Assembly (NCBI RefSeq): GCF_016860525.1
Contig: NZ_BNEA01000015.1
Coordinates: forward strand, 1,364,001 to 1,428,000
Direction: 5' to 3'
DNA length: 64,000 bases
Origin: Streptomyces rubradiris
Lineage (GTDB): Bacteria > Actinomycetota > Actinomycetes > Streptomycetales > Streptomycetaceae
Shown here in pieces: positions 37,111-44,566 of this stretch (positions within the stretch are counted from its first letter, which is position 1; the number at the start of each line of letters is the position of its first letter). Below the pieces are notes generated by a model, which saw only the letters and a list, made by a program, of their open reading frames with translations, was not told the DNA's origin and did no database searches. The position numbers and the translations under genes are program-made.

Positions 37111-37674
37111 GCCCGCACCCTTCTTCGCTCCGGCACCCCTGCTTCCCTGCCGCACCCTTGTAGCAGACCGGCAGCCGGGCGGGCGGACCACCGGCCGGTC
37201 ACCGGGTGGCCACCCGGCGGACGGTGGCTGCCCGCACGGGTCGTGGCTGCCCACACGGCGGTGGCTGCCCGACCGGCGGTGGCTGCCCGACCGGCGGTGG
37301 CTGCCCGCACGGGTCGTGGCTGCCCGCACGGCGGTGACTGCCCGCACGGGTCGTGGCTGCCCGCACGGCGGTGACTGCCCGCACGCGTCGTAGCTTCCCG
37401 ACCGGCGGTGGCTTCCCGGCGGTCCGGGACGGCCGCCGGTCGGAGCCTGCCGGTGACGGCCTGCCGGTGGCGCCGCCGGGCCGAGCCCGCCGCGCGTCCT
37501 GCCGGGACGGCCCGGGTTCCGCTGCCGCCGGGGCCGGCTTCCACGGCGGTCAGGGCCCGGGCGCCGCCGCGCGCGACCTGCCGAGAGGACAGCCGTTGCC
37601 GCATCCCTCAGACTCGGAAGAGATGACCGGCCTCCCGAGGACGACCGGTCCGTCGCGCCGGAAGGGGCGGAACC
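37111..37674. other. 564-bp intergenic region, mostly repeat
   Basis: This divergent gap between the GH4 and TerC genes carries a long minisatellite (separate entry) and G/C-rich unstructured sequence. I find no supportable gene, and no convincing manganese (yybP-ykoY) riboswitch ahead of terC. Confidence 0.5.
37224..37421. repeat. 18/19-bp minisatellite, about eleven copies
   Basis: Ten tandem units plus a partial copy begin GTGGCTGCCCG and alternate endings ACCGGCG/CACGGCG (18 bp) and CACGGGTC (19 bp), forming a higher-order 37-bp period in places. The unit length is not a multiple of three throughout, so it is not coding. It lies between the divergent GH4 and terC starts. Units in the middle are nearly identical, suggesting recent expansion. 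Confidence 0.88.
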
Positions 37675-39888: not shown

Positions 39889-41133
39889 TCACCGGGGTGA
39901 GCCGCGCAGCGCCACCGCGGGGATCACCGCCAGGGCAAGGGCTCCGGCCGCCACCGCCAGGGTCGGGTAACCGCTGCCCGTCACCACCAGGCCCGACACC
40001 ATGCCGCCCGTCGCGCCCGCCACGGACATGCCCACGTCCGCGAGGCCCTGGACCGTGGCCCGGTTCTCGGCGGGGGCGGCGAGCGTGAGCAGGGTGGTGC
40101 CGCCGATCAGAGCCAGATTCCAGCCGATGCCGAGGAGGACGAGCGCACAGGCCGACAGGACGACGGAGGCCGGCGGGGCGAGGCCCGCGAGCAGGCCGCC
40201 GCACAGCAGGACGCCACCGGACGCGACCGCCACGGGCCCGCCGCCGACCCGGTCCGCGAGCAGGCCGCTGAGCGGTGACGGCAGGAGCATCGCGCCCACG
40301 TGCAGGGCGATGACCAGGCCGGCGGTCTGTGTTCCGTGCCCGTGGCCGGTCAGGTGCACCGGTGTCATGGTCATCACGGAGACCATCACCAGCTGGGCGG
40401 TGACCATGACGGTGGCACCGGTGACGACACCGGAGATCCCGCGCACCTGCCCGCGCGGCCCGGCGCCGGAGGCCGGTCCCGCGCCGGGGCCCTCCGCGGC
40501 CGGTTCCGGAGGCGCCGGGAGGGGGCGCAGCCACACCAGCAGCACCAGGGCCGCCGCGGTGTAGGCGGCCGTCGCCAGCAGGAACGGCCCGGCCAGCCGT
40601 GGGATGCCCCAGGCGTGGGCGAGCTCGCCGGTGGGGCCGACGAGGTTCGGGCCCGCGACCGCGCCCAGGGTCATGGCGACCAGCACCGTGCCGGCGGCCC
40701 GGCCGCGCCGGGCGGGTGGGGCCAGCTCGGCGCCGGCGTAGCGCGCGAGCAGCCCCGTGGCCGTACCCGCCCCGTACACGAAGAGCGCGGCCAGCAGCAG
40801 GGCGGGCTGGTGGGCCGCGGCCCCCGCGACCACCCCCGCGCTGCCGGCGGCGGCCACGCCGTTGCCGAGCGCCAGTCCGACGCGGCGCCCCCGGTGCTGG
40901 CAGACCCGCCCGAGGGCGGCGGCACCGAGGGCCGCGCCGATGGTGAACAGCGCGACCGGCAGCCCCGACAGGCTCGTGGAATCGAACAGGTCCTGGGCGA
41001 GCAGGGCGCCGACCGTGATGCCGGCCGCCGTGCCGGCACCGCCGAGCACCTGGGAGACGACGAGCACCGTCAGCGCGCGGCCCGGCGCCCGGGAGGCGTC
41101 CGGCGTCGCGGGCGCCGGGGCCGTCCGGGTCAT
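39889..41133 (-). CDS. MFS exporter of the RiPP-like operon
   Basis: The product is 414 aa with 12 predicted helices (TVLVVSQVLGGAGTAAGITVGALLAQ at the start; QHRGRRVGL in the helix 2-3 loop). It is a drug/metabolite-type major facilitator. It overlaps the GRDP-like gene by four bases (41130-41133), so it is translationally coupled to the candidate peptide-modification genes and is the obvious exporter of their product. No ABC transporter or protease is present in the operon. Confidence 0.87.
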   Translation of the reverse strand: MTRTAPAPATPDASRAPGRALTVLVVSQVLGGAGTAAGITVGALLAQDLFDSTSLSGLPVALFTIGAALGAAALGRVCQHRGRRVGLALGNGVAAAGSAGVVAGAAAHQPALLLAALFVYGAGTATGLLARYAGAELAPPARRGRAAGTVLVAMTLGAVAGPNLVGPTGELAHAWGIPRLAGPFLLATAAYTAAALVLLVWLRPLPAPPEPAAEGPGAGPASGAGPRGQVRGISGVVTGATVMVTAQLVMVSVMTMTPVHLTGHGHGTQTAGLVIALHVGAMLLPSPLSGLLADRVGGGPVAVASGGVLLCGGLLAGLAPPASVVLSACALVLLGIGWNLALIGGTTLLTLAAPAENRATVQGLADVGMSVAGATGGMVSGLVVTGSGYPTLAVAAGALALAVIPAVALRGSPR

Positions 41134-41732
41134 GTGGCCGACCGCACCGGGGCCGCCGCGCCGTCCTGTCCCGGTGTTCCGGCAGGCTGCCCGGAGGGCG
41201 CCGCGTCATCGGCCAGGGCGGCGATCTGGTCCAGGGACAGGCCGAGTTCGTCGCGCAGGAACCGCACGATCGTCCAGTGCGGCACGGCGTCCTCGTCGAA
41301 GGGGCCGAACGCGGCCATGTAGAGGGGGATCCAGCGCAGCGCCTCCTCGGCGGCCGTGTCCCGCCCGGGAGCCTCCTGGTAGGCGTCGTAGGAGATGCTC
41401 CGGTGGTGGATGAAGCGGGCGCCGGGCAGCCGCTGTTCGCACAGTTCCCGGTATTCGCGGGTCTGCAGGATGAGGTAGTGCCAGATCTCGTCGATGTCCT
41501 GCTCGACGGGGAGGAAGAGGCCGCCGAGCCGGTCGGGGTGGCGGGAGACCAGGTACAGATAGCGCAGGCACTCGCGGACCTGGTGCCGGACGACGGCTTC
41601 GGCGGGGCTGCCGGGCTTGGCCAGGAAGTGCCGGACCACCTCGTCGTGCAGGACGGGGCCGAGCAACTCCTCGGCGGTGGGGGCCTGTTCGGTGACGCTG
41701 CCGGAGGGGGCGGGCGCTGCGGACGTGGGCAT
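41130..41732 (-). CDS. GRDP/DUF1399-like protein of the RiPP-like operon
   Basis: The product is 200 aa, not matched with certainty. Residues from about 75 to 112 read DIDEIWHYLILQTREYRELC followed by FIHH. This pattern (acidic, W-H-x-x-I-L-x-T-R-x-Y, Cys, then F-I-H-H) strongly resembles the glycine-rich-domain-protein-like (DUF1399) core. The conserved Trp-His and His-His could form a metal or catalytic site. It lies between the adenylating enzyme (55 bp away) and the exporter (overlapping), so it is probably part of the same pathway. Family assignment is by pattern recall and needs a profile search. Confidence 0.65.
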   Translation of the reverse strand: MPTSAAPAPSGSVTEQAPTAEELLGPVLHDEVVRHFLAKPGSPAEAVVRHQVRECLRYLYLVSRHPDRLGGLFLPVEQDIDEIWHYLILQTREYRELCEQRLPGARFIHHRSISYDAYQEAPGRDTAAEEALRWIPLYMAAFGPFDEDAVPHWTIVRFLRDELGLSLDQIAALADDAAPSGQPAGTPGQDGAAAPVRSAT

Positions 41733-41787
41733 GGAAATCCTGTCGGGGTCGTGGCCGGGCCGGGGAACGGGGCGCCGTGAGGGTGGG

Positions 41788-43014
41788 TCAGGGCTGGTCG
41801 GTCGCGCTCAGCCAGGCGTACTTGCCGGAGCGCCCGATCGGTAGGCGGGCGCGGTGCTCCACCTGGCAGGAGCGCCCGGTCAGGGCCGTGACGTCGGCGG
41901 CGAGCCGGGCGGTCTCGTCGGGGGTGAGCGGTACGTCGTCGAAGGTGGTGTAGGCCAGCAGGCAGGTGTCGTCGCCGGTCAGCCTCAGGTGGTGGAGGAA
42001 GACGCGGCCGCTGACGCCGGTGATGCGGCTGTCGAGGTCGGCCTGGGCGACGGGCCCCTCGCTGGTGGGCAGGAGTTCCTTCTCCCGGCCGCAGAAGGAG
42101 ACGATCCGCTCCGGGTCGGTGCTGCCGTCGTGGGTGCGGACGCAGTCGCCGGACCGGTAGCGGACCAGCGGCATGTACGGGTTGCGGACGCTGGTGACGA
42201 TGAGGCTGTGGATGCCGCTGCCCGGCGCCACCGGGATCAGTTCGACGCTCATGTCCGTCAGGTACGGCCGGTAGCGGCCCTCGGCGTCGCTGTAGAAGAG
42301 GTAGCCGAGTTCGGTGCTGCCGAAGAGGTCGATCACGGGGCAGTCGAAGTGGGCCCGCAGGTAGGCGCGGACGTTGAGCGGTGTGTACTCGTAGGCGTGG
42401 ACGATGCCCGCCGGGCGGGGGAAGCCGTCCCACAGGTCCCAGGCGGAGACTTTGCGGATCAGGTGGGCCAGGTGGTAACCGGAGCAGTCCAGGAGGTAGG
42501 CGCCGTCGGGGTGGGCGCCGGCCACCTCCCGGATCTCGCCGAGCATGCGCTCGACGTCCTCGCGCTCCCAGTCGGCCGGGTCCAGGCGGCGGTTGAGGTA
42601 CAGCGTGCGGTCGTCGAGCCAGCGTTCACCGGGGGTCGCGCCGGGCTTGCGGGCGTTGACGCGTGCCACGTGCTCGGTGGCCAGCACGGTGGTCAGCGAG
42701 ACCCGCCGGGCCCCGGCGTGCCAGGAGGCGCCGAGTTCGGGGTGTTCCTGCCACAGGCGGTAGTAGGAGCGGAGCAGGAAGTAGGGCGGCCGGATGATCT
42801 GCATTCGGGCGTGGTTGGTGCCCGTGGACAGGACGAACTCGGCCTCTCCCGTCTCCAGCGCGCGGGCCAGTCGCGGGGTCATCCAGTTGTCGGGGAAGCC
42901 CCGGGCGATCTCCGGCTTCTCCAGGATCGGGAAGTGACCCCGTTCTATGGAGGCGCGGTAGATCGGGATGTCACGCACCTTGTCCAGCACGTCGGCACTC
43001 GGCATGCGGTTCAC
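41788..43014 (-). CDS. PaaK/F390-synthetase-like adenylate-forming enzyme
   Basis: The product is 408 aa, slightly short for phenylacetate-CoA-ligase-type enzymes. ANL motifs are recognisable: phosphate loop VLSTGTNHARMQ (61-72, where canonical PaaK has T-S-G-T-T-G), A5-like DLFGSTELGYL (229-239), A7-like YRSGD (286-290) and A8-like CGREKELL (308-315). It should activate a carboxylate as an acyl- or aminoacyl-adenylate. The GTG start at 43014 follows GGAG; ATG at 43005 is an alternative. It follows the precursor gene after a strong hairpin. The likely role is ATP-dependent modification of the peptide or attachment of an acyl group to it. The altered phosphate loop leaves the substrate open. 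Confidence 0.8.
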   Translation of the reverse strand: MNRMPSADVLDKVRDIPIYRASIERGHFPILEKPEIARGFPDNWMTPRLARALETGEAEFVLSTGTNHARMQIIRPPYFLLRSYYRLWQEHPELGASWHAGARRVSLTTVLATEHVARVNARKPGATPGERWLDDRTLYLNRRLDPADWEREDVERMLGEIREVAGAHPDGAYLLDCSGYHLAHLIRKVSAWDLWDGFPRPAGIVHAYEYTPLNVRAYLRAHFDCPVIDLFGSTELGYLFYSDAEGRYRPYLTDMSVELIPVAPGSGIHSLIVTSVRNPYMPLVRYRSGDCVRTHDGSTDPERIVSFCGREKELLPTSEGPVAQADLDSRITGVSGRVFLHHLRLTGDDTCLLAYTTFDDVPLTPDETARLAADVTALTGRSCQVEHRARLPIGRSGKYAWLSATDQP

Positions 43015-43053
43015 AGCGGGATCTCCGGGGCGGTGTCGGCGGTGGTGGCGGAA

Positions 43054-43089
43054 GGGCTGCCGGCGCGGCGGAGGCCGCGCCGGCAGCCC
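43054..43089 (-). terminator. 16-bp perfect hairpin between precursor peptide and enzyme genes
   Basis: GGGCTGCCGGCGCGGC (43054-43069) pairs perfectly with 43074-43089 around a 4-base loop. It lies 27 bp past the precursor stop and 40 bp before the ligase start, on the same strand. Such partial terminators after precursor genes are common in lantibiotic and other RiPP operons, where they raise precursor over enzyme mRNA. There is no T-run. Confidence 0.8.
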
Positions 43090-43115
43090 GGCGTGTCAGC
43101 GGAACGGCCCGGACG

Positions 43116-43271
43116 TCAGCGGGAGATACAACCGCTCTTCGCCGTGACGCTGATGCAGCCGTTCTTGGGCGCGGCGCTGATGCAGCCGTCCTTCGCCGCC
43201 TCGGCGGAGTTGACGGCGACCCAGCGCTGCCACACGGATTCCTCGGTCATGCGCTTGATGAGCTGGTCCAT
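43116..43271 (-). CDS. Candidate RiPP precursor peptide with three K-x-G-C-I-S repeats
   Basis: The gene encodes 51 residues. CGGAGG sits five to six bases before the ATG, an ideal ribosome site. The N-terminal part (1-26) is leader-like: amphipathic MDQLIKRMTEESVWQRWVAV then N-S-A-E-A-A. The C-terminal part repeats K-D/N/S-G-C-I-S every nine residues, with Cys at 30, 39 and 48 and a terminal Arg. The third copy uses different synonymous codons (GGT TGT ATC TCC versus GGC TGC ATC AGC), so the protein sequence rather than the DNA is conserved. Downstream come a hairpin, an adenylating enzyme, a GRDP-like protein and an exporter. It matches no precursor family I know. Confidence 0.72.
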   Translation of the reverse strand: MDQLIKRMTEESVWQRWVAVNSAEAAKDGCISAAPKNGCISVTAKSGCISR

Positions 43272-43365
43272 GGGAACCTCCGGAAGATACGAGATTTAAC
43301 GTTTCTGCACGAACAGACGACCCAGGGCGTTGACGCTCGCCCATCGCCACCGAAGGTAAAGAGAT

Positions 43366-43386
43366 GGTCAATCAATAGTCAATAGA
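43366..43386. promoter_or_regulatory. TCAAT direct repeats upstream of the precursor gene
   Basis: Three TCAAT motifs (43368, 43372, 43379) lie in an AT-rich patch about 100 bp upstream of the precursor start. GTCAAT copies at 43367 and 43378 are 11 bp apart, one helical turn, as AraC-type regulators prefer. On the minus strand this reads TTGAC-like and could also supply a -35 element. The adjacent AraC protein is the likely binder. Confidence 0.5.
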
Positions 43387-43463
43387 AAACAGGGCGGTTG
43401 GCTGGAAACACGCGTTCGCCCCCCAAACCCCCGCCCTCGCGCGACGGTCGGCCGCACCCGGCC

Positions 43464-44420
43464 CTACCGCATGTCCGCCCGGAAGGCGACCGGGGTCTGG
43501 CCGGTGTGCAAGTGGAAGAACTTGGAGAAGTTGGCCGCGTCGGGAAAGCCCACGGCCGCCCCGACGCGGCCGATCGGCATGTCGGTGTGCGCGAGGAGGC
43601 GCTTGGCCTCCAGGATCACGCGCTTGTCGATGAAGCCCTTGGGGGTCTCGCCGGTGGCGGCGCGGACGGCGCGGACCAGGGTCCGGCGGGAGTAGCCGAG
43701 GGCGTCGGCGTAGGCGCTGACGCTGTGGTTGACGGCGAAGCCCCGCTCGACGGCGTCCCGGAAGCGGATGAAGGTGCTGTCGGCGTGGGGCGGGCACGTC
43801 TGCGCGGAGCTGGCGGCGAGATGGGCCAGCCGCAGCAGACACGCGGTCAGGGTGTGCCGCAGGACGGCCGTGTGCAGGCTGAGCGGGAGCGTGGCGGTGT
43901 CCTCGTACTCGCGGCGGAGCTGGTCGAGGGCGGCCTGGAGCGCGGTCAGTTGCGCCGGGCCGGGGTGCAGCAGCGGCGGCAGGTCGTAGCGGTACAGGCC
44001 CGCGGCCTCGACGGTGGAGCGGGGCAGGAAGCCGGGCTGCATGGTCAGGACGGTTCCGCGGTACTCGCAGTCCCGGGAGAAGCGGTGGACCTGTCCGGGG
44101 CGGATCCACAGCAGGTCGCCGGCGCCGGCCTCGTACTCGGCGAAGTCGATCATGTGCCGTACGGGGCCGCCGGTGAAGAGCATGACCACGTGGAAGTCGA
44201 TGCGGTGGACGCGGTGCAGGGGGGCCTCGGTGTGCCAGGTGCGGCCGGTCCCCATGGGGCCGATCTGCATGCCGACGCCGCCGACGGCCAGCTCGGCCGG
44301 GAAGGGGAAGGTTCTGATTCCGTCGCCACCAGCGATCCCGTCGCCGGCAGCGGTCCCGTCACCACCGGCGTCGCCGCCCTCGGTCCCCCCGCCGCCAGCC
44401 TGCCCCATTACGACCGCCAT
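43464..44420 (-). CDS. AraC-family transcriptional regulator
   Basis: The product is about 318 aa. An N-terminal cupin-like sensing domain (HRVHRIDFHVVMLFTGG, then GDLLWIRPGQVHRFS) is followed by a C-terminal double helix-turn-helix (about 222-316; GYSRRTLVRAVRAATGETPKGFIDKR and IGRVGAAVGFPDAANFSKFF). The N-terminus is a Gly/Asp-rich repeat (GGDAGGDG) and the start is uncertain: ATG at 44420 or 44408, neither with an ideal ribosome site. It lies directly upstream of the candidate RiPP operon on the same strand and is the prime candidate for its control. It is divergent from tkt. Confidence 0.85.
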   Translation of the reverse strand: MAVVMGQAGGGGTEGGDAGGDGTAAGDGIAGGDGIRTFPFPAELAVGGVGMQIGPMGTGRTWHTEAPLHRVHRIDFHVVMLFTGGPVRHMIDFAEYEAGAGDLLWIRPGQVHRFSRDCEYRGTVLTMQPGFLPRSTVEAAGLYRYDLPPLLHPGPAQLTALQAALDQLRREYEDTATLPLSLHTAVLRHTLTACLLRLAHLAASSAQTCPPHADSTFIRFRDAVERGFAVNHSVSAYADALGYSRRTLVRAVRAATGETPKGFIDKRVILEAKRLLAHTDMPIGRVGAAVGFPDAANFSKFFHLHTGQTPVAFRADMR

Positions 44421-44498
44421 GCCCTTTTCACACCGTTTCCGTCGTTCGATCACTGTCCCAGATTCACCACAGGCTGACACACCCCGACCTTTCCTCGA

Positions 44499-44513
44499 AA
44501 AAGTCAGACTTTT
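44499..44513. promoter_or_regulatory. 15-bp palindrome in the tkt/AraC divergent region
   Basis: AAAAGTC and GACTTTT flank a single base, perfect over 15 bp, 54 bp upstream of the tkt start. The AT content stands out. It is a candidate operator or transcription start element for tkt or the divergent AraC gene. Confidence 0.5.
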
Positions 44514-44566
44514 AAGTTTGAACACGTCAGGCCAGCCATCCCCCACTCAGCGAGGACTTCTTGAAG

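Follow-up and report, generated by a model that had tools for sequence, protein, structure and literature searches.

The question raised by this locus is what a 51-codon gene, encoding a short peptide of repeated K-x-G-C-I-S motifs ahead of a stand-alone adenylating enzyme, is for, and whether it forms a system with the genes that follow it. The locus lies in a 64,000 nt window from Streptomyces rubradiris (NCBI RefSeq GCF_016860525.1, contig NZ_BNEA01000015.1, 1,364,001-1,428,000), which is the whole stretch of DNA analysed and to which the coordinates of its genes refer. The precursor peptide gene (43116-43271, minus strand) starts with ATG and has a GGAGG ribosome-binding site at 43277-43281; it is followed on the same strand by a 101-bp gap, a 408 aa PaaK-like ligase (41788-43014), 55 bp, a 200 aa GRDP-like helper protein (41130-41732), and a major facilitator superfamily (MFS) transporter (39889-41133), considered a probable exporter, whose gene overlaps that of the GRDP-like protein by 4 bp. 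An earlier note on this DNA had claimed the small gene with its ribosome site, a leader-like N-terminus with three repeats, the use of other synonymous codons in the third repeat, and the tight same-strand packing of ligase, GRDP-like protein, and transporter; all of these are borne out by the translation, coordinates, and gaps. The precursor, the PaaK-like ligase, and the GRDP-like protein constitute one conserved genetic unit, which is a candidate ribosomally synthesized and post-translationally modified peptide (RiPP)-like system that could be matched to no described class.

A ligase scan of genome contigs returns 93 loci; the counts given here rest on the best 80 of the 93, which come from Streptomyces, Kitasatospora, Pseudonocardiaceae, and Sorangium. 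At 80/80 loci the ligase is preceded by a precursor homologue, 60-353 bp ahead of the ligase match, and because of this the small gene is not considered a chance reading frame. GRDP follows the ligase in 79/80 loci, the exception (L006) being cut by a contig end. Ligase operons lacking a small Cys-repeat gene were sought as a refutation and none is found among these loci; the grouping of precursor, ligase, and helper as one unit is well supported. Flanks are short at 16/80 loci, so counts of neighbouring genes are lower bounds.

Profile searches of 199 Streptomyces genomes give the same pairing. The precursor profile passes E 0.01 in 32 genomes, 29 of them strongly (E 3.2e-20 or better) with weak matches in G298, G465, and G193, while 28 genomes match the ligase profile strongly. 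All 28 fall among the 29 strong-precursor genomes, with the two genes adjacent by coordinates in each; in the 29th (G373) the precursor is 30 bp from a contig end. A search of 296 genomes of the class with the ligase profile finds five full matches, including that of the window (E 8.7e-224 or better), and no further match at E 1e-15; as the class-wide search with this profile yields full matches and nothing weaker at that threshold, the ligase looks dedicated to this system. A divergent-precursor profile built from nine sequences gives 190 matches in a protein search at E 1 or better; the 120 listed include Sorangium, Archangium, Paraburkholderia, Burkholderia sp. TSV86, Amycolatopsis, Kutzneria, and Kitasatospora, and where named they are hypothetical or uncharacterised proteins. 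One listed homologue carries the name 'linalool dehydratase/isomerase domain', which is taken as a chance domain match. The system is present in about one in seven of the sampled Streptomyces genomes (28/199 by ligase) and in myxobacteria; its spread into Burkholderiales is seen by precursor homologues alone among the matches listed. Ligase and GRDP are also found fused, as one reading frame in L008 (8001-9716, 572 aa) and in P0048 from Streptomyces cremeus (550 aa).

The precursor, MDQLIKRMTEESVWQRWVAVNSAEAAKDGCISAAPKNGCISVTAKSGCISR (51 aa), has a leader of about 26 residues followed by K-x-G-C-I-S repeats starting at residues 27, 36, and 45, with Cys at positions 30, 39, and 48. The G-C-I-S of repeats 1 and 2 is encoded by GGC TGC ATC AGC and that of repeat 3 by GGT TGT ATC TCC. 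Leader residues that do not vary among 33 aligned precursors include W14, W17, and N21, and there are invariant core residues as well. The gene is under purifying selection, with the non-synonymous rate (dN) below the synonymous rate (dS) in 14/14 pairs with dS above 0 (of 18 pairs tried, three were dropped for unequal length and one had a dS of 0; some rows serve twice). The layout, a conserved leader and core beside putative maturation enzymes at 80/80 loci, is that of a RiPP gene cluster.

Across homologues the consensus unit is K-x-G-C-[IV]-S, at a spacing of 6 to 17 residues. Three intact repeats are present in 65/80 loci, two in 9, four in 4, five in 1, and six in 1, the five- and six-repeat precursors both being from Sorangium; the suggested three per precursor is the commonest number within a range of 2-6. 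Gain, loss, and decay each act on individual repeats: the near relatives L003 and L004 carry two and three, respectively, and single repeats have decayed on their own in L067, L070, and L147. The repeat is considered the unit because it is lost or decayed singly among near relatives. Gly, Cys, Ile/Val, and Ser are, by their conservation, constrained in each repeat, as is Lys outside first repeats. In tallies that take in only repeats keeping Gly-Cys and leave out decayed ones, Lys lies two residues ahead of Gly in 238/240 repeats at the 80 loci; for non-first repeats the figures are 160/160 at these loci and 283/284 in the 120 homologues listed, which overlap the 80 loci. Arg never occupies the Lys position of a non-first repeat; it does so in three first repeats, one among the 80 and two among the 120 listed. 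In Sorangium, inspection by eye shows that the Lys is kept whereas the residue preceding it varies freely between Arg and Lys. The C-terminus coincides exactly with the end of the motif in 114/120 homologues listed and 74/80 loci; the window precursor is an exception, with a final Arg after the motif.

The ligase is predicted, from its sequence motifs and modelled fold, to be a complete PaaK-like adenylating enzyme of the ANL superfamily. The motifs that we take to be the P-loop, A5, A7, and A8 are invariant or nearly so, and the presumed A10 lysine, K397, is invariant in 28/28 aligned sequences. By sequence the protein is distant from all solved structures (best profile match 9s3l, 5.8e-8); its model has a predicted local distance difference test (pLDDT) score of 86.6 and matches the folds of PaaK1, ClxA, NatL2, and AjiA1 (2y27 at 4e-17), with the NatL2 structures 6six, 6siw, and 6tm4 among the best fold matches. 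The reading frame of the ligase stops early at two loci, L051 (380 aa) and L076 (382 aa).

The GRDP-like protein has D80, W83, H84, C97, and H109 invariant in 27 rows, and its model is helical with a pLDDT of 79. The protein first called GRDP in the earlier note is present and conserved, whereas the name itself rests on weak sequence evidence: PF07173 (GRDP) is matched at E 0.19 by 1/27 members, and some relatives are named 'glycine-rich domain-containing protein' at NCBI, with accession PF27765. More distant GRDP-like proteins occur elsewhere. One is encoded in the window's own genome (L088 1336-1824; G000:C15:4233679-4233957) and adjoins a kinase-like gene; by eye, another lies beside a cupin-like gene (L084 1477-2172) and a third has a Cys/Gly-rich tail (L085 1294-2094).

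Comparison with databases and known systems assigns the unit to no described class. NCBIfam (June 2026) and Pfam give no credible model match for 33 precursors; weak matches to PF18566 Ldi (14/33, best 5e-4) and PRK15329 (5/33, best 7e-3) are judged to be chance. The enzymes that we take to define lanthipeptides, linear azol(in)e-containing peptides, sactipeptides, lasso peptides, and graspetides were looked for as LanM/LanB/LanKC, YcaO, radical SAM, a B/C pair, and ATP-grasp; none is present in window genes 39889-44546 or in 10 representatives of neighbouring genes, in agreement with the absence of LanM, YcaO, and radical SAM claimed beforehand. PADLOC anti-phage defence models match 0/4 of the MFS, GRDP, ligase, and AraC proteins, and the literature searched contains no description of a precursor/ligase/GRDP system. 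Multi-core RiPPs such as cyanobactins and dikaritins have a leader followed by near-identical repeated cores whose number varies among relatives; the precursor here shares this leader and variable-number core arrangement, however the enzymes that define those classes are not found here, and the ligase and GRDP are unlike them. In the PEARL/pearlin system, LanB-like tRNA-dependent enzymes extend the C-terminus of a scaffold peptide; a ribosomal peptide there supports ATP-dependent product growth, as may be the case here, although here an ANL enzyme and internal repeats take the place of LanB-like enzymes and C-terminal extension. The closest enzymatic likeness is to nataxazole biosynthesis, in which the PaaK-like NatL2 is described as making an ester from an adenylate before a zinc enzyme forms the ring (excerpts of PMC7204872). 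The adenylate there goes to a nucleophile other than coenzyme A (CoA), and PaaK-like members need not use CoA according to the same excerpts (PMC7204872). NatL2 and NatAM are a stand-alone PaaK-like ligase and a second protein, zinc-dependent in that case, a pairing that ligase and GRDP here resemble; NatL2 acts on a small aromatic acid and has no peptide partner, while the present ligase has a precursor peptide. NatAM is an amidohydrolase and GRDP is not recognisably one.

It is hypothesized that the system makes a RiPP-like peptide with multiple cores, in which the ligase acylates the repeats and GRDP completes them, a proposal held with about even confidence. A leader-bearing short peptide would present 2-6 copies of K-x-G-C-I-S; the ligase would adenylate a carboxylic acid external to the peptide, and the acid is considered probably external, since an Asp, Glu, or free C-terminus common to all repeats is lacking. 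In each repeat, the acyl group would then go straight to the invariant Cys (or to Lys or Ser), bypassing CoA, and GRDP, through a putative metal site formed by H84, C97, and H109, would finish or rearrange the adduct. This ligase-then-GRDP order would follow, by analogy, the logic of NatL2/NatAM as it appears in excerpts of PMC7204872. The product, cut or whole, would leave by the MFS transporter where one exists, and bicarbonate metabolism would bear on the pathway or its product in many hosts.

Several points weigh against this proposal. The system is known here from its genes alone and its modification chemistry is deduced throughout. No acid-making enzyme is recognised and no protease is found among the 10 neighbour representatives scanned, so neither where the acid comes from nor how the repeats are released is explained; removal of the leader may fall to a host protease. 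The GRDP model has no fold match in structure comparison, and its putative metal site is suggested by conserved residues alone. Weak ligase-like matches (E 1e-11 to 1e-12) occur in the genus, in G387, G332, and G453. A chemical role for Lys in every unit is argued against by the 25/120 first repeats listed that have none; cleavage at Lys or a spacing function would account for this absence as readily as a chemical function would. As a separate observation, the weak ligase-like matches in G453 are two of equal score, one at low and the other at high coordinates of contig C1.

A beta-carbonic anhydrase and a SulP transporter are recurrent neighbours of the operon. Within stored flanks of at most about -8 to +9 kb, the anhydrase is found in 44/80 loci and SulP in 42/80, with either in 48/80 and both in 38/80 (for example L008 5251-7671, L036 10331-12524, and L078 12835-13488); neither is found near the operon in 32/80 loci, a count that includes the effect of 16/80 short flanks, or in the window. 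A second set, 28 operon windows drawn from the 199 Streptomyces genomes and overlapping the 80 loci in part, has the anhydrase in 18 and SulP in 17. What we take to be both zinc-site motifs are kept in 41/44 linked anhydrases. Both the side of the operon on which these genes sit (upstream or downstream) and their strand vary; on an 81-row tree of the ligase, the arrangement requires 15 changes versus 39.6 in shuffles.

The 29 operon genomes contain 48 SulP genes (E 1e-100), of which 17 are no more than about 10 kb from the operon versus about 0.11 expected by chance (48 x 20 kb / 8.6 Mb, the genome size being approximate); 16 of the linked genes are positioned in the SulP listing and the 17th (G481) is placed from the operon-window sample alone. 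SulP-anhydrase pairs are general in Streptomyces (PMC5489568), and 28/32 unlinked SulP genes have an anhydrase beside them, so the pair itself is ordinary while its placement is not. In a quick SulP tree of 72 rows (40 linked and 32 unlinked, the latter hand-chosen from the SulP listing and not random), linked copies fall in several groups with 8 linked/unlinked changes, at least 6 of them forced by well-supported branches; this points to repeated recruitment of the bicarbonate module to the operon from several SulP lineages. The linked SulP is the only copy at that threshold in 7/17 genomes (G319, G373, G383, G450, G462, G478, and G481), and is therefore not always an extra copy. G380 has five SulP matches. 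In excerpts of PMC5489568, SulP-carbonic anhydrase gene pairs of Streptomyces are described as putative bicarbonate transport; the same gene pair stands beside the peptide operon. The locus excerpted there is a general one (PMC5489568), whereas here the pair is found repeatedly beside a peptide operon.

The signals around the precursor gene are conserved to differing degrees. The GGAGG, read in the sequence, ends 5 nt ahead of the ATG, and a GGAGG lies within 16 nt of the precursor start in 75/80 relatives. A promoter-like element, TTGACT/TTGACC ... CTTTACC (43355-43382, minus strand), emerges from comparison of upstream regions; the pattern TTGACn-N-CTTT[TA][AC][CA] is present in 51/81 of these versus 0.06 in mononucleotide shuffles, a contrast that is overstated because the pattern was written after inspecting these sequences. 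It is not found in 30/81 regions, including L008-L010, where SulP sits just upstream. The precursor-ligase gap folds at z -4.0 into a hairpin with a 16-bp perfect stem (43054-43089, minus strand), which may be a partial terminator; no T run follows it. Stems of at least 8 bp occur in 37/81 gaps versus 3.9 expected from mononucleotide shuffles. A generic sigma-70 promoter scan and a terminator scan of the window give no match at the promoter-like element or the hairpin.

Other explanations of the small gene have to be weighed against acylation of a multi-core peptide. A short open reading frame with Cys codons and a hairpin ahead of the ligase gene could be a regulatory leader peptide, an attenuator sensing cysteine or lysine supply for the operon; however, selection acts on the amino acids of the whole peptide (dN < dS in all 14 usable pairs), the leader residues W14, W17, and N21 are invariant, the motif Ile and Ser are kept, and with a hairpin in only 37/81 gaps and a distance to the ligase that ranges from 60 to 353 bp this is extremely unlikely. 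The repeated Cys and the putative metal site in GRDP would also suit an unmodified Cys-rich metal-binding or redox peptide, with the ligase working on an unrelated small molecule. Such a peptide is considered unlikely, as the Cys residues are single and 6-17 residues apart rather than in CxC or CxxC, Cys is no better conserved than Gly, Ile/Val, Ser, or (outside first repeats) Lys, and the ligase is paired with the precursor in 28/29 genomes. It is also possible, although doubtful, that the repeats are a scaffold holding a small molecule on Cys or Lys during its assembly, and that the released small molecule is the product. The variable number of repeats around an invariant attachment motif, the adenylating enzyme, the MFS transporter, and a flavin monooxygenase in 11/80 loci agree with this; no biosynthetic enzyme besides ligase and GRDP is found common to all loci, and the strictly kept C-terminus (motif end in 114/120 homologues listed) would be needless for a mere carrier.

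The bicarbonate genes suggest two further readings. Released x-G-C-I-S peptides might act as zinc-binding inhibitors of carbonic anhydrases, with the linked anhydrase and SulP providing self-protection; the frequency of the two genes (44/80 and 42/80 loci), their having been brought in several times, the 17/48 SulP genes near the operon against about 0.11 expected, and a Lys before nearly every non-first repeat that could be a lysine-specific cleavage site all lend it some weight. This reading is nevertheless fairly unlikely: neither gene is found near the operon in 32/80 loci (with the same short flanks) or in the window, the zinc-site motifs kept in 41/44 linked anhydrases give no sign of a resistant form, a SulP that is the sole copy in 7/17 genomes is not an extra copy, and no lysine-specific protease is identified in the 10 neighbour representatives. 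Alternatively, the activated acid could be bicarbonate or CO2 itself, with a Lys carbamate adenylated by the ligase and attacked by Cys (+3) or Ser (+5) to leave a one-carbon carbonyl bridge in each repeat; the CO2 may come from the anhydrase and SulP, the bridge may be a thiocarbamate or carbamate, and GRDP may assist. The fixed K-x-G-C geometry, the presence of Lys in 160/160 and 283/284 (listed) non-first repeats with Arg in none, the lack of a recognised acid-making gene in the 10 neighbour representatives, and the repeated recruitment of the bicarbonate module are in line with it, however 25/120 first repeats listed have no Lys and the module is not found near the operon in 32/80 loci or in the window, making this very unlikely. 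If true, an ANL enzyme would be using CO2 to close a peptide macrocycle.

Should acylation of a multi-core peptide by the ligase, with finishing by GRDP, hold, the system would be a RiPP class defined by the enzyme pair of PaaK-like ligase and GRDP, and would provide a function for a bacterial GRDP-like protein. To our knowledge, genome-mining rules do not look for this pair. The findings also raise the question of why bicarbonate genes cluster round a peptide operon. The chemistry is directly testable because the peptide is short and modular.

The remaining neighbours are less constant. The MFS gene, put forward as the exporter, is common (59/80 loci, three of these with the gene about 6 kb upstream) but not universal. 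The AraC-family regulator (43464-44546, minus strand) does lie upstream of the precursor as had been noted, whereas its membership in the system does not stand; among the 80 loci it accompanies only the closest relatives, L003 and L004, and a partial 34% match in L053 is another AraC-type gene. A flavin-binding, Baeyer-Villiger monooxygenase-like protein is encoded near the operon in 11/80 loci, including 4/6 outside Streptomycetaceae: L079 (11104-12765), L078, L080, L081, L007, L015, L016, L051, L060, L066, and L077, among them Sorangium and Pseudonocardiaceae. The window has no anhydrase, SulP, or flavin monooxygenase neighbours. In 10 loci (e.g. L072 5638-7593), the opposite strand encodes a protein of formyltransferase plus enoyl-CoA hydratase type about 2.4 kb upstream, which is probably local synteny of one clade. 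Two-component genes are also seen, as a histidine kinase cluster in 7 loci (L066 5496-6983) and a response-regulator-type cluster in 9 loci (L072 4215-4970). Elsewhere in the window, a tandem array at 37218-37418 has periods of 18 and 37 bases (10.9 and 5.4 copies, respectively).

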